Shown in pieces: positions 10,294 to 40,687 of a DNA stretch of 41,511 nt. Below the pieces are notes generated by a model. It searched no databases. It worked only from the letters and a program-made list of their open reading frames with translations, and was not told where the DNA came from. This DNA comes from Caldifarciminota bacterium (GTDB taxonomy: Bacteria; Hydrothermota; Tepidihabitantia; SM23-42): contig JACUUY010000008.1 of assembly GCA_014859085.1 (NCBI GenBank), positions 1 to 41,511 on the forward strand. The letters are read 5' to 3'. A program made the position numbers and the translations under genes. Numbering within the stretch: position 1 is the stretch's first letter; each line of letters starts with the position of its first letter.

Positions 10294-11349
10294 CTATGCT
10301 CTCTTCATCGTGTAGATTACTTTCTCGTATCGCCCCAGATCCTCGAGGATCTTTCCGGCGCCGATGACGACGACTCTGTTGGGCTCGTCGGCAATCGTGA
10401 CCGGCAGGTTGGTTTCCTCCCGAACGAGAGTATCGATCCCGCGCAGGAGTGAACTGCCGCCGGCCATGTAGATACCATTATTGACGATATCTGCGGCTAA
10501 TTCTGGGGGTGTTTTCTCAAGCGTCAGGCGTATCGTTTCGGAGATCATTGACAATGGTTCCTGAATTGCCTCTCTAACCTCATGGCTGGTCAGCTTAACG
10601 GTCTTAGGAATGCCCGAGACAAGATCCCGCCCTTTGACCTCCAGGATTTTTTCCTCAACGGTCGGAAACGCGTTGCCGATGTTGATCTTGATATTCTCGG
10701 CGCTCTGCTCGCCTATGATCAGGTTATAGTTCTTCTTGATGTACTGGATCACAGCATCGTCCATCTCGTCGCCGGCGATACGGATCGAACTGTTGGTGAC
10801 AATGCCGGACAGGGCGATGACGGCGATCTCCGTGGTGCCGCCACCGATGTCGACGATCATGTTACCCATCGGCGAATGAACCGGGAGGCCAATACCGATC
10901 GCGGCCGATATCGGTTCAGGAACGAGAAGGACCTCGCGGGCGCCGGCCGCTTCGGCCGAGTCCCGTACCGCTCGCTTCTCGACCTCGGTGATCCCCGATG
11001 GTACACAGATGAGGACACGCGGGCGCGTGAAAAGCCGCTTCTTCTGCACCCTTTCAATGAAGATGCGAAGCAGGAGCTCAACCATCTCAAAATCGGCAAT
11101 GACCCCGTCCTTCATCGGACGAATAGCCTTTATTTCGTTTGGCGTGCGTCCGAGCATCTGTTTTGCGTCATTGCCTATGGCGAGACATTTCTTTGTCTTG
11201 GTGTCGATAGCGACGACTGTGGGTTCATCCAGGACGATACCCCGGCCATTGACATAGATGAGGGTCGTGCGCGTGCCGAGATCGATCGCAATATCACTCA
11301 TAAACTGACTTCTAATGTTTTTCAGCAGCGTGAATATGTTGAGCGCCAC
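10294..11349 (-). CDS. mreB: Rod-shape determining actin homologue MreB
   Basis: MreB forms membrane-bound filaments that guide the elongasome. I chose the GTG at 11349 (351 residues, VALNIFTLLKN) because AGGAGG (11362-11357) lies 7 nt upstream; an internal ATG at 11301 has no ribosome site, and extension further upstream would cross the promoter. The actin-fold motifs are clear: phosphate 1 DIAIDLGTRTTLIYV, the PEPISAAIGIGLPV block, phosphate 2 MIVDIGGGTTEIAVI, and the adenosine motif MAGGSSLLRGID. The short N-terminal amphipathic segment before DIAIDLG could be the membrane-binding helix. It is the first gene of the mre operon. Confidence 0.97.
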   Translation of the reverse strand: MALNIFTLLKNIRSQFMSDIAIDLGTRTTLIYVNGRGIVLDEPTVVAIDTKTKKCLAIGNDAKQMLGRTPNEIKAIRPMKDGVIADFEMVELLLRIFIERVQKKRLFTRPRVLICVPSGITEVEKRAVRDSAEAAGAREVLLVPEPISAAIGIGLPVHSPMGNMIVDIGGGTTEIAVIALSGIVTNSSIRIAGDEMDDAVIQYIKKNYNLIIGEQSAENIKINIGNAFPTVEEKILEVKGRDLVSGIPKTVKLTSHEVREAIQEPLSMISETIRLTLEKTPPELAADIVNNGIYMAGGSSLLRGIDTLVREETNLPVTIADEPNRVVVIGAGKILEDLGRYEKVIYTMKRA

Positions 11350-11371
11350 GGGTATTCCTCCTTTTGGTAAA

Positions 11372-11399
11372 ATGATATTTATTTTCACCCCAAAGTCAA
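11372..11399 (-). promoter_or_regulatory. Promoter of the mre operon (TTGACT-N16-TATCAT)
   Basis: TTGACT (11399-11394) and TATCAT (11377-11372) are 16 bp apart on the minus strand. They stand 22 nt before the mreB GTG and its AGGAGG. This promoter diverges from the plus-strand promoter at 11420-11447. Confidence 0.65.
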
Positions 11400-11419
11400 G
11401 GATTGAGTTGGTGAACTGA

Positions 11420-11447
11420 TTGACAACACAATTCTGATGTGTAGAAT
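11420..11447 (+). promoter_or_regulatory. Promoter of the basic small protein (TTGACA-N16-TAGAAT)
   Basis: TTGACA (11420-11425), 16 bp, TAGAAT (11442-11447). The expected start near 11454 would put the ribosome site GGGGAGG (11452-11458) at the very 5' end of the transcript. Confidence 0.65.
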
Positions 11448-11464
11448 CATTGGGGAGGTACGGC

Positions 11465-11635
11465 ATGAAGGAAAGACGGAAGAGCGTTGAACGTCGCAAG
11501 AAGGCGAGGCGTAAACTCCTGAACGAGAAGCAATTCCGCACGTTGATCGAGAAAGGTAAGGTCTCGGACAAGGACGAAAGGAAATGGGAAGAACGGAGAA
11601 ATACCAAACGCCGCCGGAAGCAGATCGGCGTGTAA
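11465..11635 (+). CDS. Small, extremely basic hypothetical protein (56 aa)
   Basis: The protein has 56 residues, with 25 Lys/Arg and 9 Asp/Glu, predicted as one continuous charged helix starting MKERRKSVERRKKARRK. GGGGAGG lies 6 nt before the ATG and a near-consensus promoter stands just upstream, so it is very probably expressed. I do not recognise a family. The composition suggests binding to nucleic acid or ribosomes, and the next gene, an HU protein with its own promoter, may be a related function. It lies divergent from mreB. A reading of the same DNA on the other strand, as an extension of mreB, is rejected because of the promoters here. Confidence 0.7.
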   Translation: MKERRKSVERRKKARRKLLNEKQFRTLIEKGKVSDKDERKWEERRNTKRRRKQIGV

Positions 11636-11679: not shown

Positions 11680-11707
11680 TTGACAGGGCAGGGTATATCA
11701 CTATAAT
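11680..11707 (+). promoter_or_regulatory. Promoter of the HU gene (TTGACA-N16-TATAAT)
   Basis: Perfect -35 (11680-11685) and -10 (11702-11707) hexamers are 16 bp apart. The transcript would carry a leader of about 83 nt before the HU start. The leader contains GGGGAGG (11741-11747) and a possible 12-codon TTG-initiated reading frame (11759-11797) whose TGA overlaps the HU start. Confidence 0.75.
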
Positions 11708-11796
11708 AGATTGTTGCTATCGATCGGTCTTTCTTGTACAGGGGAGGTAAGATCACGTTTGGCATACACAGGGGTAATAACTAGCAAGGAGGAATG

Positions 11797-12093
11797 ATGC
11801 GACGGGAATTTTTGATCGAGAAGATCGCCGAAAAGATTGGACCGGCGTATACCAAAACGGACATTGAAATGCTGATCGACACGTTTCTGGATACACTCTT
11901 TGAGATCCTGGTCCAGGAGAAGAGGGTTGAACTGCGCAAGTTCGGAACTTTCGAACTGAGGAAGAGACCGGGCAGGACCGCAAAGGCACCCAAGACCGGC
12001 AAGGTCTACACACTAGGTGATCGATACGTGCCGTTCTTCCGACCATCGAAGAAATTCAAGAACAAGGTTCAGGAAAAGACCGGAGCAGTGTAG
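11797..12093 (+). CDS. HU/IHF-family DNA-binding protein
   Basis: This is a 98-residue histone-like protein that would bend and compact DNA as a dimer. ATG 11797 (MRREFLIEKIAEKIG) is preferred over the adjacent ATG 11794 because AAGGAGG (11786-11792) is then 4 nt rather than 1 nt away. The family signature is clear: an N-terminal helical pair, then VELRKFGTFELRKRPGRTAK, the beta-arm, and the C-terminal strand-helix with VPFFRPSKKFKNKV. The FRPSKxFK ending is typical HU. It has its own strong promoter and no partner in an operon. Confidence 0.95.
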   Translation: MRREFLIEKIAEKIGPAYTKTDIEMLIDTFLDTLFEILVQEKRVELRKFGTFELRKRPGRTAKAPKTGKVYTLGDRYVPFFRPSKKFKNKVQEKTGAV

Positions 12094-12333
12094 CATAGGA
12101 GGGTGAATACATCTGTGAATACTGGCCAACGGGGTTTTGATATTAGATGCTACACGCCGATGCCAGGTGATCGATGATTATTGGGGCTCAGAACCGCCCT
12201 GTCGCAACGTACCCGTCCATTTTCTCACCAGCAGCCGTTAGGTCTGCGCAGGATCCGCTACACAGGGACCGCCGGGAACGTTAAGCCGCTGCTCTGCAAC
12301 ACGCAAGACCATTACCGGGCACGATTCCAATGG
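12094..12333. other. Gap between convergent genes with possible RNA structure
   Basis: No protein gene is convincing here. AACGTACCCG (12206-12215) can pair with CGGGAACGTT (12273-12282) with a single A-A mismatch, enclosing GC-rich sequence with further small palindromes such as CTGCGCAG. A perfect 7-bp stem GACCATT (12307-12313) / AATGGTC (12329-12335), loop 15 nt, straddles the stop of the HndB-like gene. I looked for 6S, SRP, tmRNA and RNase P signatures and found none. It could be an unrecognised small RNA or only the junction of two 3' regions. Confidence 0.3.
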
Positions 12334-12723
12334 TCAGTGGGTCATCTCGCTGCCGACGGCGAGCGCGTAGTCACTGACCGTCTTTCCATTTATCACATGC
12401 TGATCGAGGATCTTCTTTATTTTTTCACGGGTCAGGTCCACGTACTTGATCGGCGGTTTGCCCGTTATCTCGACCGTGGCCATTGGTTCGCGGCTGCACA
12501 GACCGGCGCAGCCCGATGTCGAAACGATCACGTCATCGAGTTTTTTCATGCGGATCTCTTCCAGGAGGACTGAGAGAATATCACGCGCGCCGGCCGCGAT
12601 GCCGCAGGTTCCCATGTGGACCGTGATCTTTGCCCTTGCTTTGCCTTGCCTCAGCGCCGCGGTTCTTCTTACCCGGTCCCGGACTTTGGCAAGGTCGCCG
12701 ATCTTCAGTTTTGTCTGTTTCAT
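12334..12723 (-). CDS. HndB-like thioredoxin-fold [2Fe-2S] protein
   Basis: This 129-residue protein resembles the NuoE/HndB type ferredoxin subunits of NAD(P)-linked [FeFe] hydrogenases. It has the block HMGTCGIAAGARDIL with Cys40 and STSGCAGLCSREP with Cys72 and Cys76; only these three cysteines are present, as I recall for HndB-like members, whereas NuoE uses four. It would carry an electron-transfer or redox-sensing cluster. It is the last gene of the seven-gene sensor operon and overlaps the preceding HATPase gene by 4 nt (ATGA). No hydrogenase catalytic or diaphorase subunit follows, so a role in signalling rather than bulk electron transfer is inferred. Confidence 0.85.
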   Translation of the reverse strand: MKQTKLKIGDLAKVRDRVRRTAALRQGKARAKITVHMGTCGIAAGARDILSVLLEEIRMKKLDDVIVSTSGCAGLCSREPMATVEITGKPPIKYVDLTREKIKKILDQHVINGKTVSDYALAVGSEMTH

Positions 12724-13277
12724 CCATTGCTCCTTTCGGACAGCGATTCCAGGCCGCTTTCGATCGCTTCTTTTATGAAAGACAATATCTCGGGGTGGTT
12801 TATTGCCACACCATCCAGCGTTTTCGTTATCTCTGCCGTGTCAAAGATGAATTCCCGGTTGCCCCGGCAATGGCGGTACACCAATCTTACGGCCCCGGCG
12901 CTGCCGGCGATAAGAGCCGCGATCGTCTCGGCCATACTGCCCAGGGGTTTCCGGTCAATATGGCGGTAGACAAAACTTGCCTTGATCACAGTGCCTCGGC
13001 CGGGTTCTGACCGTATCTCGAGGTTGCCGCCGGCCTCCCCGCAGGCCTGAGCCAACATTGAGAGCCCGAGCCCGACCCGGCGCGTGTCCTTGGTCGTGAA
13101 GAACGGGTCGCGGCTCTGGCTTAGGTTCAGCTGGTCCATGCCTTTGCCGTTGTCTTCGATCTCAATAGTGAACAGGTTTTCATCGATGTCCTCATTGATC
13201 CGGACCTCGATCTCGGTTGCCCCCGCGGCCGTAGAATTCTCAAGTATGTCGAGGACGTGGAGCGATAGGTCGTCCAA
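12720..13277 (-). CDS. Stand-alone histidine-kinase-type ATP-binding (HATPase_c) protein
   Basis: The product has 185 residues from a TTG at 13277, placed one nucleotide after the PHP stop and behind GGAGA. In-frame ATGs upstream would overlap the PHP gene by about 37-60 nt. A single GHKL ATPase domain is visible: N box LHVLDILENSTAAGA, G1 EDNGKGM, the DPFFTTK loop, G2 RVGLGLSML, and G3 GRGTVIKASF. No dimerisation/phospho-acceptor helix or sensor domain is present, so it probably acts on a partner protein. About 70 C-terminal residues beyond the fold have no assigned role. Such ATPases accompany [FeFe]-hydrogenase-like sensors in Thermotogae and Clostridia. Confidence 0.8.
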   Translation of the reverse strand: MDDLSLHVLDILENSTAAGATEIEVRINEDIDENLFTIEIEDNGKGMDQLNLSQSRDPFFTTKDTRRVGLGLSMLAQACGEAGGNLEIRSEPGRGTVIKASFVYRHIDRKPLGSMAETIAALIAGSAGAVRLVYRHCRGNREFIFDTAEITKTLDGVAINHPEILSFIKEAIESGLESLSERSNG

Positions 13278-13278
13278 A

Positions 13279-14025
13279 TCATTTCTCCAGCAGGACACGG
13301 CGGCCGTTTTCATTGCGTAACGCGTGCCGCATCTCATCGATCGTTGGCCGCTCGACCTGGAATATCGTGACCCCTTTGCCTATCTCGTCCAGGTTATGGG
13401 CATCAGAGGAGGTGATCACGGGATGTGCTGAGATTTGCGAAAATAGATGCTTCGCCTGGTTGGATTCGATCCGGGAAGAGACCTCGAGCGCATCCAGGGG
13501 CAAGTTCTCCGGGATGAATCCCAGCTGTCCGAGTATGCTGTATGCTTCGCGGTCGATATGAGAGGCAATTGCCAGACCGCCGAGTTCATGGATCCCGGCA
13601 ATGACTTCTTCGATCGATATACTCGTTGCCCCGATCAGGAGCCGGTCGCTGTAGCCCATTATTTCATCTGCTTCATTGACGATGATCTGCTCGCCGAACA
13701 GCCGTTCATCGTTCTTACCGCTACTGAGGTTATCGTAGACTTTTTTCTGCATGTTCAGAACCGCTCCGGCGTCAGCAAATAGGCCGATCACGTGGACCTC
13801 TTCAGCGCTCGTGATCTCCATAGCCGGACATACGGACAGATCGGTTCCGCGCGCCGCGTTCATTGCTGCCTGCACATTCTCGGCCGAGTTATGGTCGCAT
13901 ATCGCGATCACGTCCAGTCTTCTCGCGAGCGCCGCCTGAACGATCCTGAGCGGTGACATGGTAAGATCGGCGCATGGTGATAGGCAGGTATGGATGTGCA
14001 GGTCAGCACGCAGGCACTTCAGCAT
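13279..14025 (-). CDS. PHP-domain metal-dependent phosphoesterase
   Basis: This 248-residue protein keeps the PHP metal-binding residues: DLHIHT (His10, His12), ICDHN (Asp44, His45), Glu70 in AMEITSAEEVHV, His in ASHIDR, and SSDAHNL near the C-terminus. PHP enzymes hydrolyse phosphate esters, including nucleotides. The substrate is unknown here. ATG 14025 shares its A with the TGA of the upstream DRTGG gene; the next gene starts one nucleotide after its stop. The location between a DRTGG protein and a GHKL ATPase suggests it destroys or makes a small signal in the same pathway; this is inference. Confidence 0.88.
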   Translation of the reverse strand: MLKCLRADLHIHTCLSPCADLTMSPLRIVQAALARRLDVIAICDHNSAENVQAAMNAARGTDLSVCPAMEITSAEEVHVIGLFADAGAVLNMQKKVYDNLSSGKNDERLFGEQIIVNEADEIMGYSDRLLIGATSISIEEVIAGIHELGGLAIASHIDREAYSILGQLGFIPENLPLDALEVSSRIESNQAKHLFSQISAHPVITSSDAHNLDEIGKGVTIFQVERPTIDEMRHALRNENGRRVLLEK

Positions 14026-14369
14026 CAACGCTTTCCGCGCAAGCCCAATGCGTGCAATTCGCCGATCAGTTCGAATGCCGGCAGATCCGTGACCATGATC
14101 GGGATGGACTCGGATTCTGCCTTGCTGACCGTATCTTGCTCTGGTTTGCGGCCATTGACCAGCACGATCCCGCAGATCTCCTTGAGGACCGCGACCGCGA
14201 CGATGTTCGGGTGGGTTTGGAGCGTGATCCAGATATCACCCTTGTTGCTGTGCGCCATGACATCGCTGAGCAGATCACTGGCATAGCCGCCGGCCGCTTC
14301 GCGATCGAGCGACCCTGAAGCGCTTAGCACTTGAAGCTTGCATGACTTGACGATCTCCGCGATTTTCAT
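14025..14369 (-). CDS. DRTGG-domain protein (second copy)
   Basis: The product has 114 residues and one DRTGG-type alpha/beta domain, with LSASGSLDREAAGGYASDLLSDVMAH at the start, THPNIVAVAVLKEICGIVLV in the middle, and the IPIMVTDLPAFELIGEL ending. DRTGG domains occur beside CBS domains and in Pta; their ligand is not established, but small-molecule or nucleotide sensing is plausible. It overlaps the hydrogenase-like gene by 4 nt and the PHP gene by 1 nt. It is a diverged paralogue of the first gene of the operon (16087-16473). Confidence 0.8.
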   Translation of the reverse strand: MKIAEIVKSCKLQVLSASGSLDREAAGGYASDLLSDVMAHSNKGDIWITLQTHPNIVAVAVLKEICGIVLVNGRKPEQDTVSKAESESIPIMVTDLPAFELIGELHALGLRGKR

Positions 14370-15661
14370 TTTTTGTTCTCTCCAGTTTTCTTTGCGTCAT
14401 CGAGCAGATGACAACTGATGTATATGCAATCCTCGAGCCTTGCCTCGCCCCGCACGATATCATCGGCAAGGGTCTGGCAGTCCGGGGCGCCGCAAACGCC
14501 GCAGTCGGTGCGCGGCAGTTTCCTGATCAATTCTTCCTTCAGTTCCAGTTTCTTTATCGCCGCGTTGCGGTTTTTGTCCAGGGGTGGGAACGGCTTTGGC
14601 TCGACCGCCCATTTGAATGAGAAGAAATTCTTGTGGTACAGATCCTTGACCATGTTGGCATTGACCCGTTTCTTGCCGCCGAACTGCCGGATCATGCGTA
14701 ATATAATGCTTTTTGCAATGAAGCGGTTCTCCACGGTGAGCGGCCCGCCGACACATCCGTCCGGGCATATGAGGCACTCGAGATACTCGATATTCTTGAG
14801 CCGGCCCGAATCCACGTCTTCGAGGATCCGTATCGTGTTGAGGACTCCGGACACGGCCACCGAATTCGCATGCTTCAGCCCCCTTATTTCTCCGCCCTCG
14901 ATCGCCCAGCCGATACCGATGCCGCTCGTATGCGTCTGCGTCAGGAACACGGGATTGCGCCGTTTCAATCTCATCATGGCCTCATTGTATATTTTTCTCA
15001 CCGGGATCGCGCCGTCGAGGTGGGACCGCTCCATTGTCTCCGGATGGCTGATCGAGACCATCTTGGCCGAACAGGCCGTGATGTCGATGATCCCTATTTG
15101 CTCCGGGGCGATATTCTGCTCCCGGGCGATCTCGGCGCGCAGGTTCTTGGCTGCGATCTCGCGGGGTGGCTCCAGGGGCAGGATATTCTTGCATAGACTG
15201 GGGAAGAGCCGCTGTATGAGCCGGACGACGACCGGGCAGGTCGACGAGATTATCGGCCGCGGTGATTTGTTTTCATCGAGATACTCTTCGATCGCGATGC
15301 TGATCATTTCGCACGCCAGAGCCTGGTCATAGACGTGGTCAAAACCGATTTCCTTGAGTACGGCGAGGATCTCGTTCGGCATGACATTCGCGCCGAATTG
15401 CGAGTAGATCACGGGCGAGGGCATGGCGATTTTGTATTTGAACCGGTCAAGGTCCGAGGGCAGGGTCGTGACCGGTACCACGGCGCCATGTGGGCACACG
15501 CGCAGGCAGCCGCCGCAGTCAATACACCGTTCGTAGTTGATGCGGGCTTTCCGGTTGCGCAGTCTTATTGCTTTGGTCGGGCAGATCTTCATGCAGGCGA
15601 CGCAGCCGACGCATCGCTTATCGTCGATCCTGATCGAATGAACGAGGTTCGGTTCAGCCAT
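14366..15661 (-). CDS. Sensory-type [FeFe]-hydrogenase-like protein (HydS-like)
   Basis: The protein has 431 residues from ATG 15661, overlapping the previous stop by 8 nt. Two [4Fe-4S] motifs come first (Cys17/20/23/27 and Cys46/49/52/56). The H-cluster domain keeps the four ligands of the [4Fe] subcluster: Cys142 (SSTCP), Cys197 (TACSAK), and Cys299 and Cys303 (CPDGC). In catalytic enzymes the first loop reads TSCCP; here the proton-relay Cys is replaced by Thr141. A C-terminal FeS domain has Cys387, Cys390, Cys395 and Cys412. Low-activity group C/D sensory hydrogenases share the loss of that cysteine. With HATPases, DRTGG and PHP genes around it, it is likely a redox or H2 sensor. No HydEFG maturase is in the window. 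Confidence 0.88.
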   Translation of the reverse strand: MAEPNLVHSIRIDDKRCVGCVACMKICPTKAIRLRNRKARINYERCIDCGGCLRVCPHGAVVPVTTLPSDLDRFKYKIAMPSPVIYSQFGANVMPNEILAVLKEIGFDHVYDQALACEMISIAIEEYLDENKSPRPIISSTCPVVVRLIQRLFPSLCKNILPLEPPREIAAKNLRAEIAREQNIAPEQIGIIDITACSAKMVSISHPETMERSHLDGAIPVRKIYNEAMMRLKRRNPVFLTQTHTSGIGIGWAIEGGEIRGLKHANSVAVSGVLNTIRILEDVDSGRLKNIEYLECLICPDGCVGGPLTVENRFIAKSIILRMIRQFGGKKRVNANMVKDLYHKNFFSFKWAVEPKPFPPLDKNRNAAIKKLELKEELIRKLPRTDCGVCGAPDCQTLADDIVRGEARLEDCIYISCHLLDDAKKTGENKK

Positions 15662-16097
15662 TCTTGCCATTGAGCAGTATATTGATCTCGAGCCTGGTGC
15701 CTTTGCCGACACGCGAGGTCAGGTTGAAGACATCGGCGTTCTTCTTGATGTTGGGCAGGCCCATGCCGGCGCCGAATCCCATTTCCCTCATCTCCTCGCT
15801 GGCCGTCGAATATCCGGGCTGCATGGCCAGGTCGATATCGGCAATGCCTGGTCCGCTGTCGTCGATCGTCAGCCGGATCTCTTCCGGGTAGACATTGACC
15901 TCCATTTTTCCGTGGTGCGCGTACATGACCACGTTCATCTCGGCTTCGTAGGCGGCGATCGCGATGCGCCTTACGACTTCGCTGTCGATGCCGATCTGGC
16001 GCAGCGTATTCCTTATCTTGCATGACGATTCGCCGGCATTGACGAAGTCGCCGCCACGGATCGCGTATTCCTGGTGTAGCAATGCCTCAGCGCGCAT
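15654..16097 (-). CDS. RsbT/RsbW-like serine kinase / anti-sigma ATPase
   Basis: The 147-residue protein is a compact GHKL ATPase of the anti-sigma/RsbT type. The N box is EAEMNVVMYAH, G1 is DDSGPGI (about 98-104) and G2 is GFGAGMGLPNIKK. The Asn and Gly residues that hold ATP are intact. Such proteins phosphorylate an anti-sigma antagonist or bind a sigma factor, but no antagonist gene lies beside it. It is second in the sensor operon, overlapping the first DRTGG gene by 11 nt and the hydrogenase-like gene by 8 nt. It could transmit the FeS sensor state to gene expression. Confidence 0.85.
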   Translation of the reverse strand: MRAEALLHQEYAIRGGDFVNAGESSCKIRNTLRQIGIDSEVVRRIAIAAYEAEMNVVMYAHHGKMEVNVYPEEIRLTIDDSGPGIADIDLAMQPGYSTASEEMREMGFGAGMGLPNIKKNADVFNLTSRVGKGTRLEINILLNGKNG

Positions 16098-16473
16098 TTC
16101 GGGGGTCTCCGCAGGGCCCGGCTGGAGCTAGAATGCCGCTGTTGTGAAGGATACCGCACGCTTCAAACATCCTGAGTTTGCATGCCAGAAGCGTAATATT
16201 GCACTGCCGGGCAAGTTCGATCGTGTCGGCCCGAGGGTTCTTGCCGCGGACAAAGACAATCGCCCGGATCCCGGAGATCTCGCATGTTCTGACGACCTGC
16301 TTGTTCGTCAGCCCGGTGATGAGCAGGGTGTTGCGGTCTGAAAAGGCTTGTGATAAAGCAAGGACATCGCTCATCAGGTCTGATGCCTTGGCATATTTGA
16401 TATCAGGGTCGTCACCGCCCTGCTCTGAGATCATCGTTGCCCGCAGCAGTTCCTGGATCCGGGAAAGTTTCAT
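16087..16473 (-). CDS. DRTGG-domain protein (first copy), first gene of the sensor operon
   Basis: The product has 128 residues. The domain is recognisable from ASDLMSDVLALSQAFSDRNT, TGLTNKQVVRTCEISGIRAI and VFVRGKNPRADTIELARQCN, then a short Pro/Gly-rich tail. It is related to the second DRTGG protein of the operon but clearly diverged, so the two may respond to different ligands or form a heterodimer. It is preceded by its own promoter with an about 18-nt leader and AAGG before the ATG. Confidence 0.8.
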   Translation of the reverse strand: MKLSRIQELLRATMISEQGGDDPDIKYAKASDLMSDVLALSQAFSDRNTLLITGLTNKQVVRTCEISGIRAIVFVRGKNPRADTIELARQCNITLLACKLRMFEACGILHNSGILAPAGPCGDPRNAR

Positions 16474-16497
16474 TTATTGACCTTCATTCACAGACCA

Positions 16498-16525
16498 ATT
16501 GTAGGTAAATCGCAGTTATTGTCAA
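16498..16525 (-). promoter_or_regulatory. Promoter of the sensor operon (TTGACA-N16-TACAAT)
   Basis: TTGACA (16525-16520), 16-bp spacer, TACAAT (16503-16498). It is the only promoter I can see for the seven overlapping genes. The left hairpin repeat of the hsdR island begins 21 bp upstream of its -35 box. Confidence 0.7.
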
Positions 16526-16546
16526 TGATTCACACCCGCGCCAAAA

Positions 16547-16586
16547 CGCAACAAAATCAACCTGGGGGATTTTGTTACGTTTTGAA
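16547..16586. repeat. 40-bp hairpin repeat, left copy
   Basis: Starts CGCAACAAAATCAACCTG and matches 18473-18512 at 36 of 40 positions in the same orientation. It is itself an inverted repeat: AACAAAATC pairs with GATTTTGTT, extended by AAAACG/CGTTTT across one mismatch. Confidence 0.9.
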
Positions 16587-16687
16587 TCTGTGATTTGTTC
16601 AATTTCGCACTGAGTCTCCGCGGGTGGAGTACCCATACATTGTCTATGAAGAATGCGATAATAAGGCGGGGAGTCCCCCTGTGTACG

Positions 16688-17302
16688 CTAATTGGGGATC
16701 ATGGCATTGATCGCGAACCAATATGAGAACAATGACAGTTCGATTTTCTGGTGATTCTTAAACTCTGTCGCGGCTAATTCCCAAAATCGCTTGTTGTGTC
16801 GTCTTTCAATCAAATGGATCAGTTCATGGTAGATTATGTATTCGATGTGTCTTTTCGGTAGATACTTCATGATCGTATTGATTGTGAGGTTTTGGCTGGG
16901 ACTGCAGCTTGCCCACTTAGTGCGCATTTTGCGATAAAAGACACAATTCACATGAACATTCAGATCAGCCTGGTAACGCGTCAGTATTTTGGCGGTCAAC
17001 AATTGAAATTCGGCTATCGAACGATCCAGTAAGTCCAGTTCCTTCGCTGCCTCAAGGCAACGAATGATGAATTCTTGCCTATTATGAACCCAGGCCATAT
17101 GTTTCCGCAGGACAACGCCAGGATCTTTGCCTTGGGGCATGATTGCCTCTAATTCACCGGATTTTAATTCAAGGCGGGGGAATTTGATCCTGCGGTATTT
17201 GGTCGTATGTTCGATCGGGTATCCGCCTCTGACATGCCTGTCGTTCATTCCCGCTTTCTTCTTCAGCTGAATGAGACGTGAAATTGCGGGTCTATCCGCC
17301 AT
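16688..17302 (-). CDS. YgjP-like zinc metallopeptidase (DUF45)
   Basis: This 204-residue protein is of the YgjP/DUF45 (M48-like) type. The zinc motif HELIH has His159, Glu160 and His163, followed by ERRHNKRFW, and the typical KWASCS block precedes it (about 129-134). Members are often located beside type I restriction genes, where the role is unclear. It overlaps the truncated hsdR by 11 nt. ATG 17302 is used, though Met19 is also possible. The downstream stretch up to the hairpin repeat (16587-16687) has no gene, only a short GGGGA/TCCCC stem. Confidence 0.88.
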   Translation of the reverse strand: MADRPAISRLIQLKKKAGMNDRHVRGGYPIEHTTKYRRIKFPRLELKSGELEAIMPQGKDPGVVLRKHMAWVHNRQEFIIRCLEAAKELDLLDRSIAEFQLLTAKILTRYQADLNVHVNCVFYRKMRTKWASCSPSQNLTINTIMKYLPKRHIEYIIYHELIHLIERRHNKRFWELAATEFKNHQKIELSLFSYWFAINAMIPN

Positions 17303-18482
17303 AACGCATAACCTTACATATTAAACTCTCGTATAATCTATCCATATCATCCATGCTCAGTTGATATTCTGATTTCAATCTGCGCACGAATTTGCGGACT
17401 TCTTGTTCAACTGATTTTCTGGCAGTCGCTTGTAGATTCCAGCCCGGAAACATAGAGCTGCGCAACCGCAAATATAGGTTCCGAATTTCGTCGCAGAAAG
17501 TCTTGTCTGTCTGTAGATGTTCCTCCAATGTTAGGAGCAACGCATATTCTGTATCTGACAGGCCAAGTTCGTGTTGGCGTGATCGTAACGTCTGAATATC
17601 GCCAAATATTGCCACTCCTTCTTGATATATGCGCTCATAGTCTTTAGTCTTTTCCCGCCAGAGGTCTACCAATCTCTGGACGCGATCGGTGAGTGATTCA
17701 AATACCGGGTCTTGCTTTTTGTCAACAAGGACAAAGCGCTGCAAAGTGAACAGGATGTTAGCCGCTTTCTCCTCTCGGCTCTTCACTTTTTCGTCTAATC
17801 TCCGTAGTGAATCCGCATCAAAGGTTATTGTTGGCAATTCATGTTCGAGCGTATCTATTTCGGTTGATTTGTAGACGTATTTCAGTGTTTTGTCGTAGTA
17901 TCTATGCACATATGCATCGATGCTCGTCCCGCACATAACCGTTTTCATATAGTAGGTATAGATTGCCGATACCCACTTGTACTGCTCAAAATGCCTCAGC
18001 TTGTGGGGATCAGATCCGAGAAGTTCAAATATTTTGCGTAATTCGCGATAGTCTGCAATGAACTTTTCTTCTTTCGAAACGTCAGTCGTGAGGATCTCTA
18101 CGGCCTTTAGCAGCGTCTGGCGTTCATAGTTCTGTGGCAGTCCATTGAATATCTGCGTGGTCTCTGCGATAAGTGTGTCGAACTCAATCCGAATGCTGTC
18201 GAAATCGTTCAGTGCGGTATCTATTGCGTCTTCCCTGCTATACAACTCAAAAGCGCGTTTGAATTCCTTCAGAATGCCAACATAGTCTATGATGATGCCT
18301 ACCTTCTTTAGTCCTTTATAGGGTCGATTAGTACGCGCGATCGCCTGCAGGAGCCGGTGCTCTTTTAATGGTTTGTCAAGGTACATTACCTGAAGTTGCG
18401 GTGCATCAAACCCGGTGAGAAGCATGTCCGTAACGATCAGGATCTTGGGGTGGTCATTTTCCTTGAGCTTTTCGCAACAAAA
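17292..18482 (-). pseudogene. hsdR: Type I restriction HsdR, C-terminal fragment
   Basis: The frame opens right after a TGA inside the right hairpin repeat. About 397 codons resemble the end of HsdR: PKILIVTDMLLTGFDAPQ is motif V and QAIARTNRPYKG is motif VI, then the helical C-terminal region. The N-terminal nuclease domain and helicase motifs I-IV (about 600 residues) are absent. The first in-frame ATG (18425) lies within the helicase core, so a functional restriction translocase is not possible. No hsdM or hsdS is in the window. Translation may persist and carry the overlapping metallopeptidase gene. Confidence 0.9.
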
Positions 18483-18512
18483 TCAACCTGGTTGGTTTTG
18501 TTGCGTTTTGAA
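18473..18512. repeat. 40-bp hairpin repeat, right copy
   Basis: This copy is nearly a perfect palindrome: CGCAACAAAATCAACC, one base, then GGTTGGTTTTGTTGCG, 16 pairs with one G-T wobble. It forms the last codons and stop of the nitrilase gene and the breakpoint of hsdR. Confidence 0.9.
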
Positions 18513-19286
18513 GTAGAGGTCGGGCCTCCGTTCGGCCAGGAGGTCGTTATGTTCGGTTATTTTCTTATCGAGCGCCAGGGCCGGATCGATCTCAATGACC
18601 CGGACGCAGGTTTCCTCGGCCACGCGGACGAGCAAATCGCCGTTCGGCGCCACGGCCTGGCTCTTACCAATGAAGTGGAAGTTCTTACTGCCGCGGATCT
18701 CGTCGCCGCAGCGGTCGGCCGTGATGACAAAGACCCGGTTCTCGATGGCCCGCGTGACCATCGCGTCCGGACAATAGGGCGTGACGAGGTTTGCCGCGTG
18801 CAGGATGACCTGGCTGCCCTGCAGAACCAGGGTTCGCATCGCTTCGGGGTATATCCAGTCCCAGCAGATGAGCAGGCCGATTTTCACGCCCTTGTATTCG
18901 AAGGTATTGAATCCGGTATCGCCGGGTGCAAACAAGAATTTCTCTTCGAAGAAGAGGTGTGATTTCCGGTACGCCGTAACCATACCTTCGGGCGTGACAA
19001 AAGCCATCGAATTGTAGAATCGGTCACCGGCCCTCTCGGCAAAGCCGAAGGCGAACGCGCACCCTGTTGCCTGCGCCAGGCCGTGCATGAATTCGGCGGT
19101 CTCGCCCTGGACCGGTTCGGCCAGTCCGGCCAGCTCGTCCTTATCCAGAAACGCGTAGCCGGTGCTGAAGAGTTCGGGCAAAACGATGACGTCGGCCTGG
19201 ATATGCTCGAGCAAATCGCGGACGGTTCTCAGGTTGTCTTCTTTCTTGCCGAAGACGGGAGCGAACTGCAAAAACCCCACTTTCAT
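18483..19286 (-). CDS. Carbon-nitrogen hydrolase (nitrilase superfamily)
   Basis: The protein has 267 residues from ATG 19286, one nucleotide after the LUD stop. The catalytic triad is complete: Glu38 in LPELF, Lys108 in YRKSHLF and Cys141 in ICWDW. The superfamily cleaves amides or nitriles; omega-amidase or carbamoylase activity are possible, but the substrate cannot be told. The last residues KTQQNQPG come from the hairpin repeat, so the original C-terminus has probably been replaced. It is co-transcribed with the LUD gene. Confidence 0.92.
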   Translation of the reverse strand: MKVGFLQFAPVFGKKEDNLRTVRDLLEHIQADVIVLPELFSTGYAFLDKDELAGLAEPVQGETAEFMHGLAQATGCAFAFGFAERAGDRFYNSMAFVTPEGMVTAYRKSHLFFEEKFLFAPGDTGFNTFEYKGVKIGLLICWDWIYPEAMRTLVLQGSQVILHAANLVTPYCPDAMVTRAIENRVFVITADRCGDEIRGSKNFHFIGKSQAVAPNGDLLVRVAEETCVRVIEIDPALALDKKITEHNDLLAERRPDLYFKTQQNQPG

Positions 19287-19287
19287 T

Positions 19288-19917
19288 TCAAAACCCCAGT
19301 TTCTCATTCACGAGCAGGACCTTGATCTTCGTCTGCCACGGCCGGTACTGGATGATCGTGATCACGCGGCAGATCCTGCCCGGTGCATCGCAGTCAACAC
19401 ACTTGCCGGTCTTGGCGCACGGTGTCTTGGATCCGACCCGCTGGGCATTGAGCGCTGCGGCGATCTCCTTGCTGCGTGCGATCCCGGCATCGATGTCCGG
19501 CACGATCTTGTTGTAGCCGGCGACGATGATGACGTTCTCCGGTCCGTAGATCATGTGCGCGACGCGGTTGCCAATGCCGTCGATGTTGATGATTTCGCCT
19601 TGCTCGGTGATCGCATTGGCGCTCGTGAGATAGTAGTCGGCCAGTCCCTCTTGTCGCCGGAGCTTGCGGTCGGTCTCTTCGGTCAGCCCGGGTTGCCAGT
19701 GGGGGATGACTGCGTTGCCCCGCGCTTCGAGTTTCCCGATGATGCCCAGTTCGCGGATGGTTACTGACCCGCCGATGCCGACAACCGCTTCCGGCGGGAT
19801 GTACTGAAGCAGGGTTTTGGCCGCTTCATTCGCGTCCGGTACAACGGCGCATTCGAAATCTCTCTTGTTCAGTGCCCGGGCGGTTTTCGTTAGGTCGGTA
19901 ATTTTGTCTGTTGGCAT
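19288..19917 (-). CDS. LUD-domain protein (LutC/YkgG-like, DUF162)
   Basis: The product has 209 residues. The fold signature is GIGGSVTIRELGIIGKLEARG near 48-67, and TSANAITEQGEIINIDGIGNRVA. Four cysteines, Cys167, Cys173, Cys176 and Cys183, form the C-terminal CxxxxxCxxCxxxxxxC group found in a LUD subclass, possibly binding metal or FeS. Family members occur in lactate utilisation complexes, but lutA/lutB are not here. I use ATG 19917 (MPTDK) since AAAGGAGG is then 8 nt away; ATG 19923 would be only 2 nt away. It leads the LUD-nitrilase pair. Confidence 0.87.
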   Translation of the reverse strand: MPTDKITDLTKTARALNKRDFECAVVPDANEAAKTLLQYIPPEAVVGIGGSVTIRELGIIGKLEARGNAVIPHWQPGLTEETDRKLRRQEGLADYYLTSANAITEQGEIINIDGIGNRVAHMIYGPENVIIVAGYNKIVPDIDAGIARSKEIAAALNAQRVGSKTPCAKTGKCVDCDAPGRICRVITIIQYRPWQTKIKVLLVNEKLGF

Positions 19918-22708: not shown

Positions 22709-23827
22709 TCACCGCAACAAGACGATTTTAGCCAGTACTCCATGTCCTCGATCCGATTTGAGAAAGTACACACCCGCGCTTAGGTCTGCGAGATTTATGG
22801 TTTCGGTGATTTGGTTTAATCGCAGAATCATTACGACGCGACCCAAGGCATCACACAGCGCTAACTGCAATGGCGGGTTTCCAATGGTAATATGAACCAT
22901 ATTCCTCGCCGGGCTGGGTTCGATATTGCACATTACAGAGGTCTCGTGCACGACTTCGAGGACACTCACTATCTGGTCGACGTATATTGTCCCGGGCAAA
23001 CCAGGCTGGCCATTGCCGTAACCACCAATACCTGCATCACCGCCCTGTGCGGAAATGCTCAAGGCTGATGTATCGATGAAAGTGGTGTAGAAGATCTTGA
23101 CGCGGCCACCGCCCGCGCCACCGCCACCGAACCCATATTCAGGGTCAACCGGGCCTCCTGGTCCGCCGTTTGCCTCGAGCGCGGTGCCATTGACCATTAT
23201 ACTATCGGCCCAGAGCATGATCCCGCCGCCTGAACCGCCGCCGCCGGCGACCATGGCCGCCGTGTCGCCGGTCTCACCGTTTGCTGTGATGAGTGAAGAG
23301 TCTATTGCGAGGGTGCCGGCTCGGATGCAAATGGCGGCTCCGCCATTGCCGCCAAAGCCTTCTACGCCGCCAAGGCGGCCTGCCCCGCCGCCCGAACCCA
23401 TCTGTATGAGCGTATCACTGCTGTTGCCGTAGACAATGCCGCCAGTACCAGGGCTGCCGCCGCCATTGCCGCCGGTTCCGCCATAGCCGGCACCACCACC
23501 TGCACCGCCGCCAAGGTTTCCGGCCACGCCGTATCCCGGGCCGTAGCCATCCGGGTGGGTGTTGGTGCCTCCCCAATAGCCTGCGCCGTGCCCGCAGATC
23601 GCAGACAAGCCTTCGATGCGGATATCGGGAGCGTTCAGCACCAGCCAGCCCGTGGAATCGCTGCCGGTCCATGTTCTCACCAGCAGCCTTGCGGTGTCAG
23701 CAATGTGTATTTTGTGATTGTAGATATGCTGCCCGCACATGGTCAGGGTGTCATTGTAGACGATCAGGCTGTCGCTGTCTTCATAGATATAGCCTGCCAT
23801 GAATGCGATATACAGAAGTGCTGCCAT
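22709..23827 (-). CDS. Glycine-rich secreted protein with T9SS-like C-terminal tail
   Basis: The product has 372 residues. A short hydrophobic start (MAALLYIAFMAGYIY) is followed by beta-strand-rich sequence and a long Gly-rich zone (about 80-280) with GGGAGGGAGYGG, GGGGSGGGIMLWADS and GGGGAGGGRVKIFY blocks, a pattern found in large extracellular beta-helix-like proteins. The end (about 300-372) resembles type IX secretion sorting tails: a proline-containing 'IEPSPARNMVHI' strand, 'LCDALGRVV', and 'LSAGVYFLKSDRG', closing with IVLLR. The ribosome site is GGAGGCAATATG. Likely a surface or extracellular protein. Confidence 0.82.
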   Translation of the reverse strand: MAALLYIAFMAGYIYEDSDSLIVYNDTLTMCGQHIYNHKIHIADTARLLVRTWTGSDSTGWLVLNAPDIRIEGLSAICGHGAGYWGGTNTHPDGYGPGYGVAGNLGGGAGGGAGYGGTGGNGGGSPGTGGIVYGNSSDTLIQMGSGGGAGRLGGVEGFGGNGGAAICIRAGTLAIDSSLITANGETGDTAAMVAGGGGSGGGIMLWADSIMVNGTALEANGGPGGPVDPEYGFGGGGAGGGRVKIFYTTFIDTSALSISAQGGDAGIGGYGNGQPGLPGTIYVDQIVSVLEVVHETSVMCNIEPSPARNMVHITIGNPPLQLALCDALGRVVMILRLNQITETINLADLSAGVYFLKSDRGHGVLAKIVLLR

Positions 23828-39071: not shown

Positions 39072-40637
39072 CTACCGCACCAGCAGTAGTTTCCGGGTTT
39101 CCCGGTGATCCCCATGCTCAAATTTCAGAAAATAGACACCGCCTGGAAGTTTCCTGCCTGCGTTGTCGTCACCATACCAGAAGATGTGCGCGGGGCACAG
39201 GGCATGGGTCGAAGTGTGAGCCAGATTTCTGACCAATCGACCCGAGATATCATAGATCTTCAGCTCTGTGCGTTGCGCGTTTTGCCGTGTGTAATAGGTG
39301 ATATCTGTCCGGTCTCGAAACGGATTCGGGTTGATCTGAAGAACCGGGACAATCGGCTCTGGTAGTTTGTGTTCCTGAATACCGACAGGCCAATAGAGCC
39401 ATGGTACATAGTCGACATAGTCACTCACCGAATCACCCAGGCCGCCCGGGTTAGTCACCGGATGATAGGGTCCAGTAGAGTCACCCCACCAGTTATATTC
39501 AGCGTTAACTATTATGCCCGGCCAGTCATTGCGCACCCCATAACCTTTGTTATCGGTAATGTTAGTATAGTTTATTATCGTAGCGCAGTGATTTATATAT
39601 ATCCCTTCACGATCATTGCCTGATATCGTGCAGCTATCAATAATTACTGATGTATACTCACAACAGATGCCGCCACCAAAAGCAGCCACATTCGCAGTGA
39701 CAATATTGTTGATGAAGAGTACTGAGTCGCCAGCAATATACACACCACCGCCACCGTAAGACCACGGACTAATGTTCTCAGAAATAGTATTGTTGCGAAT
39801 AGTAGGCGAACTACTAATACAGCAAATACCACCACCACCACCTATTGCCGAATTACCGATGATGATATTACCGTCAATGAGTGACGCACTGGACAAGAGA
39901 CAGATACCGCCGCCTAAAGGCGGAGGTCTTCTGAAATCAATACCATTGAAGGCTTTTTTTGAATAATCCATGCCCATATCAATATTTTCAGCCGTAACAT
40001 ATTCGTTGTAGCTTATAGTATTCCCCGTGATGGTTGGTGAAGATTCCATACAGAAGATGCCGCCGCCGAAATAAGCACTATTGCTGGTAATGCTGTTATC
40101 TGCAATAACTGGAGAGGAATAATCCATAGCTACGATGCCACCGCCATACGTACTCATGTTGTTGGAAATGAAGTTATTCGTAATAACCGGTGATGAACTG
40201 TCGGTGCATGCTATACCAGCACCTCCATAATTGCTTGTTATGATATTCCCACATATTCTTGGTGCCGAATGATTCGAACACAAAATACCGCTACCATCGT
40301 AAGCAGAGCCATTTCTGACTGTAAAGCCAGAAATTACCGTGCTTGTGTCTATGCCATTTGCTATCGTTAGCACGCTACCCGCACTATTCCCATCAATGAT
40401 CGTTGTATCAGGACCATATTCACTTATCAAGTCAATACCCTGGGTATTTGGCCAGACGATGTTTTCGTAATAGATACCCGGCCCCACGAGCACAGTATCG
40501 TTGTCTGAACTGGAATCCAAACCAGCTTGTATTGAGTTAAGGGTCGAATCAGGATGCACATACCAGATGTTTGCCTGTCCTGCACACCAGGTTAGCATCA
40601 ATATCAATATACTTATCAGGCCGACATGGTTTTTCAT
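39072..40637 (-). CDS. Secreted right-handed beta-helix protein with FlgD/T9SS-like tail
   Basis: The product has 521 residues from ATG 40637 behind GGGGAGGCAAT. The signal peptide (MKNHVGLISILILMLTWCAG) precedes a beta-helix with about ten coils; repeats such as SSPTITGNTISYNE, SSPVIADNSITSNSA and SSPTIRNNTISEN have NosD/pectate-lyase-C spacing. The C-terminus is INPNPFRDRTDITYYT, LKIYDISGRLVRNL and AGRKLPGGVYFLKFEHG, closing with LLLVR, as in T9SS type A tails. It may bind or digest polysaccharide at the cell surface. It sits between two copies of the 330-bp repeat, and has its own promoter. Confidence 0.9.
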   Translation of the reverse strand: MKNHVGLISILILMLTWCAGQANIWYVHPDSTLNSIQAGLDSSSDNDTVLVGPGIYYENIVWPNTQGIDLISEYGPDTTIIDGNSAGSVLTIANGIDTSTVISGFTVRNGSAYDGSGILCSNHSAPRICGNIITSNYGGAGIACTDSSSPVITNNFISNNMSTYGGGIVAMDYSSPVIADNSITSNSAYFGGGIFCMESSPTITGNTISYNEYVTAENIDMGMDYSKKAFNGIDFRRPPPLGGGICLLSSASLIDGNIIIGNSAIGGGGGICCISSSPTIRNNTISENISPWSYGGGGVYIAGDSVLFINNIVTANVAAFGGGICCEYTSVIIDSCTISGNDREGIYINHCATIINYTNITDNKGYGVRNDWPGIIVNAEYNWWGDSTGPYHPVTNPGGLGDSVSDYVDYVPWLYWPVGIQEHKLPEPIVPVLQINPNPFRDRTDITYYTRQNAQRTELKIYDISGRLVRNLAHTSTHALCPAHIFWYGDDNAGRKLPGGVYFLKFEHGDHRETRKLLLVR

Positions 40638-40687
40638 ATTGCCTCCCCAATTACTATTTCTCTCAAATAGCACAATTCTATTAACTT

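Follow-up and report, generated by a model that had tools for sequence, protein, structure and literature searches.

The cassette and its genes

The present study concerns a cassette of seven genes on the minus strand (12334-16473) of a 41,511-nucleotide stretch of DNA, the whole of which is hereafter termed the window (positions 1-41,511 of JACUUY010000008.1, assembly GCA_014859085.1, Caldifarciminota bacterium; contig C161 in our numbering). The genome (G000; 2.57 Mb, 252 contigs, 97% complete) belongs to the phylum referred to here by the lineage name WOR-3/Stahlbacteria, and gene families were assigned using Pfam and NCBIfam profiles. An earlier note on this DNA had described seven overlapping genes of named families, read from a single promoter. 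All seven open reading frames are present and intact with their families borne out, neighbours overlapping by approximately 1-11 bp or sitting no more than 1 bp apart, and a predicted promoter matching 11 of 12 consensus positions lies directly upstream, at a position that in relatives is interior to an operon, directly after nuoE. Two starts were reassigned by homology, that of the HydS-like gene from GTG 15712 to ATG 15661 and that of the GHKL gene from ATG 13337 to TTG 13277. The elements are, in the 5' to 3' order of the cassette:

16498-16525, minus strand: cassette promoter, sigma-70-like, TTGACA-16-TACAAT (16525-16498), 11/12 consensus positions
16087-16473, minus strand: gene 1, predicted stand-alone DRTGG-domain protein, 128 amino acids (aa) (homologues, identity to gene 4, AlphaFold fold)
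15654-16097, minus strand: gene 2, SpoIIAB/RsbT/RsbW-like (anti-sigma-like) GHKL ATPase, 147 aa (PF13581 and PF02518 above cut-off; spIIAB 51 bits)
14366-15661, minus strand: gene 3, HydS homologue, an iron-sulfur (Fe-S) protein of group D (M2e, TamHydS-like) (two [4Fe-4S], Fe_hyd_lg_C, C-terminal Cx2Cx4Cx16C)
14025-14369, minus strand: gene 4, second stand-alone DRTGG-domain protein, 114 aa (PF07085 above cut-off)
13279-14028, minus strand: gene 5, putative PHP-domain metallophosphoesterase (PF02811 and PF13263 above cut-offs)
12720-13277, minus strand: gene 6, GHKL (HATPase_c) ATPase without its own His-phosphoacceptor domain (profile search)
12334-12723, minus strand: gene 7, HndB/HydD-like thioredoxin-fold [2Fe-2S] protein (PF01257 24.2 bits, cut-off 24.8)

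Gene 1 itself has no Pfam match in the profile search, and its assignment to the DRTGG proteins is by homologues and predicted fold: it shares 32% identity with gene 4, PF07085 is matched by 27 of its 29 aligned relatives, and its AlphaFold model (pLDDT 86.8) matches the solved DRTGG structures 2ioj (E=1.2e-06) and 3l31, with a weaker match to the HPr-kinase N-domain. Ser35 is invariant in both DRTGG proteins. The N, G1 and G2 box residues of gene 2 are at least 90% conserved among 99 homologues, so that the GHKL ATP-binding boxes are present. The metal ligands of gene 5 (H11, H13, D45, H46, E71, H79, H157, D209 and H211) are likewise at least 90% conserved (89 homologues); its closest solved relative is a PHP 5'-3' exoribonuclease, a weak match, and the models for PHP 3',5'-bisphosphate nucleotidase and RNase AM give 41 bits, below their cut-offs of 375 and 400. 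C72 and C76 of gene 7 are conserved in homologues, its first cysteine pair is incomplete, and its PF01257 score is slightly sub-threshold.

Conserved order and partner enzymes

The core order DRTGG-ATPase-HydS-DRTGG-PHP recurs in dozens of genomes from many phyla, far beyond chance, as the earlier note had anticipated. Of the loci with enough sequence, 58 of 64 named ones and 17/19 from WOR-3 have it intact. Where more than 8 kb of downstream sequence is available, NuoF lies in the same cluster at 46 of 58 named loci and 13 of 14 WOR-3 loci, the latter usually having NuoE beside the cassette too; at the only WOR-3 exception (G086) the locus is interrupted by a 100-N scaffold gap. The cassette had been called free-standing, which is true of the window as the result of a deletion (see below) and not of the normal state, which is embedded beside NuoF.

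Five kinds of catalytic head accompany the cassette and NuoF. The [FeFe] HydA subunit is found in Clostridia and in WOR-3 family f11; Ignavibacteria, Aminicenantes and relatives have instead a HydA-like subunit lacking the H-domain together with [NiFe] small and large subunits; in the f30 Stahlbacteria NuoF and a StnC-like GltD/NuoG fusion come after the cassette; and a molybdopterin subunit occupies this place in two loci. In the window's family and its sister family f2 the operon reads histidine kinase, sigma-54 regulator, glutamate dehydrogenase (GDH), NuoE, cassette, NuoF-GltD fusion, Fer2/Fer4 protein and GltB-like protein. With heads so varied and NuoE/NuoF constant, the cassette tracks the NuoE/NuoF core and not hydrogen. 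On the question of whether hydABC genes adjoin it in relatives, the HydC and HydB equivalents are present, and HydA is absent save in a distant family of the phylum (G005) and in Clostridia. The cassette can also stand alone, since at three clostridial loci (L090, L094 and L128) the core has approximately 10 kb of NuoF-free sequence on either side. No earlier description of the cassette was found in the searched literature, which leaves out most subscription journals.

Two further sets of loci were recorded. At L146:5156-17172 (G087), GDH, NuoE, the cassette, the NuoF-GltD fusion (1028 aa), the Fer2/Fer4 protein and the GltB-like protein follow one another, with equivalent operons at L147, L148, L150, L152, L154, L159 and L160; these would encode a possible NADH/ferredoxin-linked (bifurcating) glutamate synthase, and no NCBIfam model matched the GltB-like protein. 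At clostridial L089, L095, L114, L119 and L120, NuoE and NuoF come after the cassette, with no recognised catalytic subunit in the available sequence.

HydS and the missing route to the H-cluster

HydS of the window follows the group D (M2e) plan, having two N-terminal [4Fe-4S] sites, an H-domain with four cubane cysteines and a C-terminal Cx2Cx4Cx16C motif, the domain pattern described for TamHydS of Thermoanaerobacter mathranii (PMC8163306). The cubane cysteines are invariant across all HydS rows compared, while C299 is replaced by T, M353 by T and M497 by L, the proton-transfer cysteine thus being lost as in group D. The protein is 40% identical to HydS of Thermoanaerobacter wiegelii, which is encoded within the same core order, with NuoE, NuoF and HydA also nearby. 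HydA has a serine at the column of HydS cubane cysteine C300. Selenocysteine in the HydS of relatives was considered and rejected, the in-frame TGA codons all lying upstream of the true start.

HydS is the sole PF02906 (Fe_hyd_lg_C) protein in the genome, and the PF02906 search found no catalytic HydA in the cassette's cluster or anywhere else in G000; the absence of a catalytic hydrogenase from the cassette's surroundings, noted earlier, therefore extends to [FeFe]-hydrogenases in the whole genome. Nor were HydF and HydG found in G000. Cassette-bearing relatives within the order likewise have no second Fe_hyd_lg_C protein, no HydF and no HydG. True HydF occurs in 18/147 genomes of the phylum, with neither the window's order nor f30 represented among them, and long HydA-type proteins are limited to HydF-bearing families outside these two groups; HydG above cut-off is absent from G000 and from all HydF-minus carriers searched. 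Low-scoring HydF matches, present in all 147 genomes, were dismissed as sub-cut-off and equally present in HydF-lacking control genomes. Among the named non-Clostridia carriers (Ignavibacteria, Chlorobi-like, Aminicenantes, Sumerlaeota, Zixibacteria and others), HydS is in most cases the sole PF02906 protein, with HydF likewise usually absent. With HydF and HydG missing, the [2Fe] half of the H-cluster is not buildable by the known route. Two loci, L067 (G148, Coatesbacteria) and L083 (G164, Deltaproteobacteria), belong to genomes with true HydF in which HydS is nevertheless the only PF02906 protein, i.e. without HydA.

The pocket of the [2Fe] site varies along with HydF. The columns of CpI residues A230, S232 and G501 hold A, S and G in most HydS from HydF-plus genomes and S, V and D, Q or T in HydF-minus ones. 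Fisher tests against HydF status give p values from 1e-8 to 6e-15, which are not taken as significance because HydF status switches only approximately six times on the tree, and the link between pocket residues and HydF status is suggestive, not statistical proof. The earlier note had also proposed H2 signalling; given the missing maturases and the place of the cassette in relatives, which is a glutamate synthase/NuoEF operon and not the side of a hydrogenase, this is probably wrong for the window's lineage. G000 does carry [NiFe]-hydrogenases (contigs C1 and C107), in agreement with PMC12542636, so H2 is likely metabolised.

Two-sided deletion in the window

The enzyme genes of the cassette have been deleted on both sides in the window. 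Aligned with three congeners at the nucleotide level, it shows three collinear blocks, namely the nitrilase region (~18.5-19.8 kb), the cassette (12.33-16.40 kb, 68-70% identity) and HU-MreB (10.3-12.1 kb), with no trace of the enzymes in between. The features of the flanks are as follows:

10294-11607: mreB, left flank beyond HU, common to relatives
11794-12093, plus strand: HU-family gene, left flank common to relatives (profile search, alignment)
12094-12333: left deletion junction, where relatives have the NuoF-GltD fusion, Fer2/Fer4 protein and GltB between HndB and HU
16526-18482: right replacement junction, where relatives have the histidine kinase, sigma-54 regulator, glutamate dehydrogenase and NuoE
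16688-17302: ygjP-like metallopeptidase gene, in the right replacement block
17292-18425: truncated hsdR (type I restriction R-subunit, C-terminal part only), in the right replacement block
18483-19307, minus strand: nitrilase-family gene, right flank common to relatives (NCBIfam, alignment)

The place of the right enzyme block is thus taken by the ygjP-like gene and the truncated hsdR. The HU gene had been recognised correctly as one flank; the other, described as a hairpin repeat island, is overstated, since there is a single 17-nt imperfect hairpin (16542-16584) with a single related copy at 18494. Its half-site AACGCAACAAAATC recurs at 18494-18507, the nitrilase end of the ygjP/hsdR block (3 matches versus 0.01 expected), and the copies possibly mark recombination borders.

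The loss is not confined to the locus. Nothing in G000 matches GltB, a protein with 92-98% identity among congeners; the operon GDH (91-92% among congeners) is absent, leaving only a 42% paralogue; and the NuoF-GltD orthologue is absent, with only 54% and 64% paralogues, on contigs C199 and C242, that form part of other NuoEF-type clusters. The clusters on C242 (L174) and C199 (L175) comprise NuoE-NuoF-NuoG-like-FNR-GltD, and NuoF-GltD with a 1088-aa Fe-S flavoprotein; that containing the flavoprotein adjoins a histidine kinase and a response regulator. The window has zero N. Relative G086 also lacks the histidine kinase, response regulator and GDH between nitrilase and NuoE, with no N there, and a search found its operon GDH to be absent genome-wide. 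Apparent relocations of NuoF-GltD/GltB in G086 and G085 coincide with 100-N scaffold gaps, and these genomes were not counted as orphans. In a congener, G084, the whole cassette is absent.

Outgroup distances of RsbT, HydS, DRTGG2 and PHP are no greater in the window than in congeners; that of GHKL is about equal to one congener's, that of gene 1 is slightly longer, and the HndB branch is clearly longer (0.45 versus 0.26-0.31). Faster HndB evolution fits the loss of a partner that HndB contacted, with the signalling core still constrained, which we treat as a hint only because the proteins are short.

Elsewhere in the window, a perfect 12/12 sigma-70-like promoter (TTGACA-16-TATAAT, 11680-11707) lies upstream of HU, and two proteins (22709-23827 and 39072-40673) have Por_Secre_tail C-terminal sorting domains, pointing to a type IX-like secretion system in the lineage.

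Proposed role and alternatives

The reading that we favour, to which we give an even chance, is that the cassette senses redox state and regulates NuoEF-type complexes as a portable unit, which in the window has been orphaned and most likely acts in trans. The module would serve NuoE/NuoF-type (HydC/HydB-type) flavin-based electron-transfer complexes. HydS of the window's lineage, holding [4Fe-4S] clusters only, would respond to how reduced the ferredoxin/NAD(P)H pool is. The anti-sigma-like and GHKL ATPases would read its conformation by way of the DRTGG proteins and phosphorylate or bind partners accordingly. The paired DRTGG proteins with their invariant Ser35 are candidate partners of the ATPases, and the PHP enzyme may reset the system or remove a phosphorylated ligand, the phosphate coming from a nucleotide or a protein. 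In G000 the module has lost its own enzymes (GDH, NuoE, NuoF-GltD and GltB) by the two-sided deletion, has kept its reading frames with a promoter of its own, and would most likely act in trans on the NuoEF complexes of C242 and C199, the alternative being that no role is left to it. The complete signal chain and the phosphorylated nucleotide messenger that the earlier note had put forward are both hypothetical.

Several points weigh against this proposal. Sensing, phosphorylation and any target are proposals, and proteins of the GHKL/HATPase kind would suit maturation as well. HydF-minus HydS retains K358 and P231, the residues that secure the [2Fe] site of hydrogenases; the few switches of HydF status leave few independent pocket events; and the search for maturases covered HydF and HydG, two of the three maturases HydE, HydF and HydG. 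The deletion could also be too recent for decay to show.

A role in assembly or maturation is unlikely, though it deserves some weight. Here HydS would be a [4Fe-4S] scaffold resembling H-cluster-free Nar1/NARF, and the GHKL ATPases would assist, in the manner of Hsp90, in building or checking complexes of the NuoEF type. Such a role suits a cassette that follows the NuoEF core and not the catalytic head and whose HydS is not a hydrogenase by the known route, and HydD, HydP and HisK of a NiFe-HydABCSL operon have been assumed to be 'maturation and/or regulation' genes (PMC8880783). The free-standing cores L090, L094 and L128 are, however, remote from any NuoEF, other NuoEF clusters, including those of C242 and C199, have no adjoining cassette in the available sequence, gene 2 resembles anti-sigma factors, and the DRTGG domains of solved proteins are regulatory.

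It is distinctly unlikely that the cassette of G000 is a functionless relic, left without a role by deletion of its enzymes and heading for loss. The disappearance of both enzyme blocks, the cassette-free congener and the faster evolution of HndB and, slightly, of gene 1 are what decay would produce, but all seven frames with their catalytic and ligand motifs are intact, the promoter stands directly upstream, and RsbT, HydS, DRTGG2 and PHP have not accelerated.

An H2 sensor, with HydS holding an H-cluster and reporting H2 to the ATPases, was already disfavoured and is very improbable: group D HydS of T. mathranii binds an H-cluster and is a proposed sensor (PMC8163306), G000 has [NiFe]-hydrogenases and K358 is conserved, but HydF and HydG are absent from G000 and its order, the equivalents of A230, S232 and G501 are altered, and the operon partners within the order are glutamate enzymes. 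A mis-assembly that joined the cassette to its neighbours, the real locus retaining its enzymes, is equally hard to credit, for although G000 is in 252 contigs and apparent operon breaks in two relatives are 100-N scaffold gaps, the window contains no N, relatives have the same conserved genes on both flanks so that a chimera would need two matching errors, GltB, the operon GDH and the NuoF-GltD orthologue are missing from all of a genome that is 97% complete, and G086 also lacks the histidine kinase, response regulator and GDH between nitrilase and NuoE in N-free sequence.

Going beyond the window, and more tentatively than for the redox-regulator reading itself, we suggest that a branch of the 'sensory [FeFe]-hydrogenases' may be H-cluster-free, hydrogen-blind Fe-S redox sensors in a swappable NuoEF cassette, compatible with any head ([FeFe], [NiFe], Stn, molybdopterin or glutamate synthase) and able to persist alone, regulating in trans by redox state. 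H2 sensing is the presumed function of 'sensory hydrogenases' in groups C and D, and for group D no signal path is known (PMC8163306, PMC13104023). Carriers in nature that lack the known H-cluster maturases and whose partners are not hydrogenases, together with one orphan copy, offer a direct route to the sensed signal and its targets; if the suggestion is true, the cassette in fact targets the NuoEF core that electron-bifurcating complexes share, and not a hydrogenase. One cassette for several NuoEF-based complexes, often without known H-cluster maturases, is of more interest than the orphan in the window, and a possible NADH/ferredoxin-linked glutamate synthase operon is indicated in WOR-3 bacteria.

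Comparison with known systems

Gene 2 resembles the SpoIIAB/RsbT/RsbW anti-sigma kinases in its ATP-binding motifs and size, and differs in scoring far under the curated cut-off (51 versus 135 bits); no STAS or sigma partner lies within the cassette, the rest of the genome not having been searched for one.

The Stn (Sporomusa-type Nfn) transhydrogenase consists of NuoE, NuoF and GltD-NuoG (PMC7483475), and in the f30 Stahlbacteria, too, NuoF comes after the cassette, together with a GltD/NuoG-like homologue of StnC. In the passages of that source consulted no such cassette is reported for Stn, and in f1 and f2 the NuoF-GltD fusion is instead followed by the GltB-like protein.

The closest published statement found is that on the bifurcating NiFe-HydABCSL operon of Acetomicrobium mobile, in which HydD, HydP and HisK are the genes assumed to act in maturation and/or regulation (PMC8880783). 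Going by names alone, the PHP protein may correspond to HydP, the GHKL ATPase to HisK and the HndB-like protein to HydD. That operon thus has extra putative regulatory or maturation genes within a HydBC-containing operon, as here, but just three such genes are named (PMC8880783), whereas at the Aminicenantes and Ignavibacteria loci the full cassette precedes NiFe-HydABCSL-like genes.

The nearest relative of the window HydS in plan is TamHydS, a putative sensory [FeFe]-hydrogenase of group D (M2e) encoded in an operon upstream of HydABC (PMC8163306, PMC13104023). The two share the same domain plan, the four cubane cysteines, the loss of C299 and the C-terminal Cx2Cx4Cx16C. They differ in that the window genome is without HydA, HydF and HydG, that the [2Fe]-pocket residues are changed, and that the partners of the cassette in the window's order are glutamate/NuoEF enzymes.

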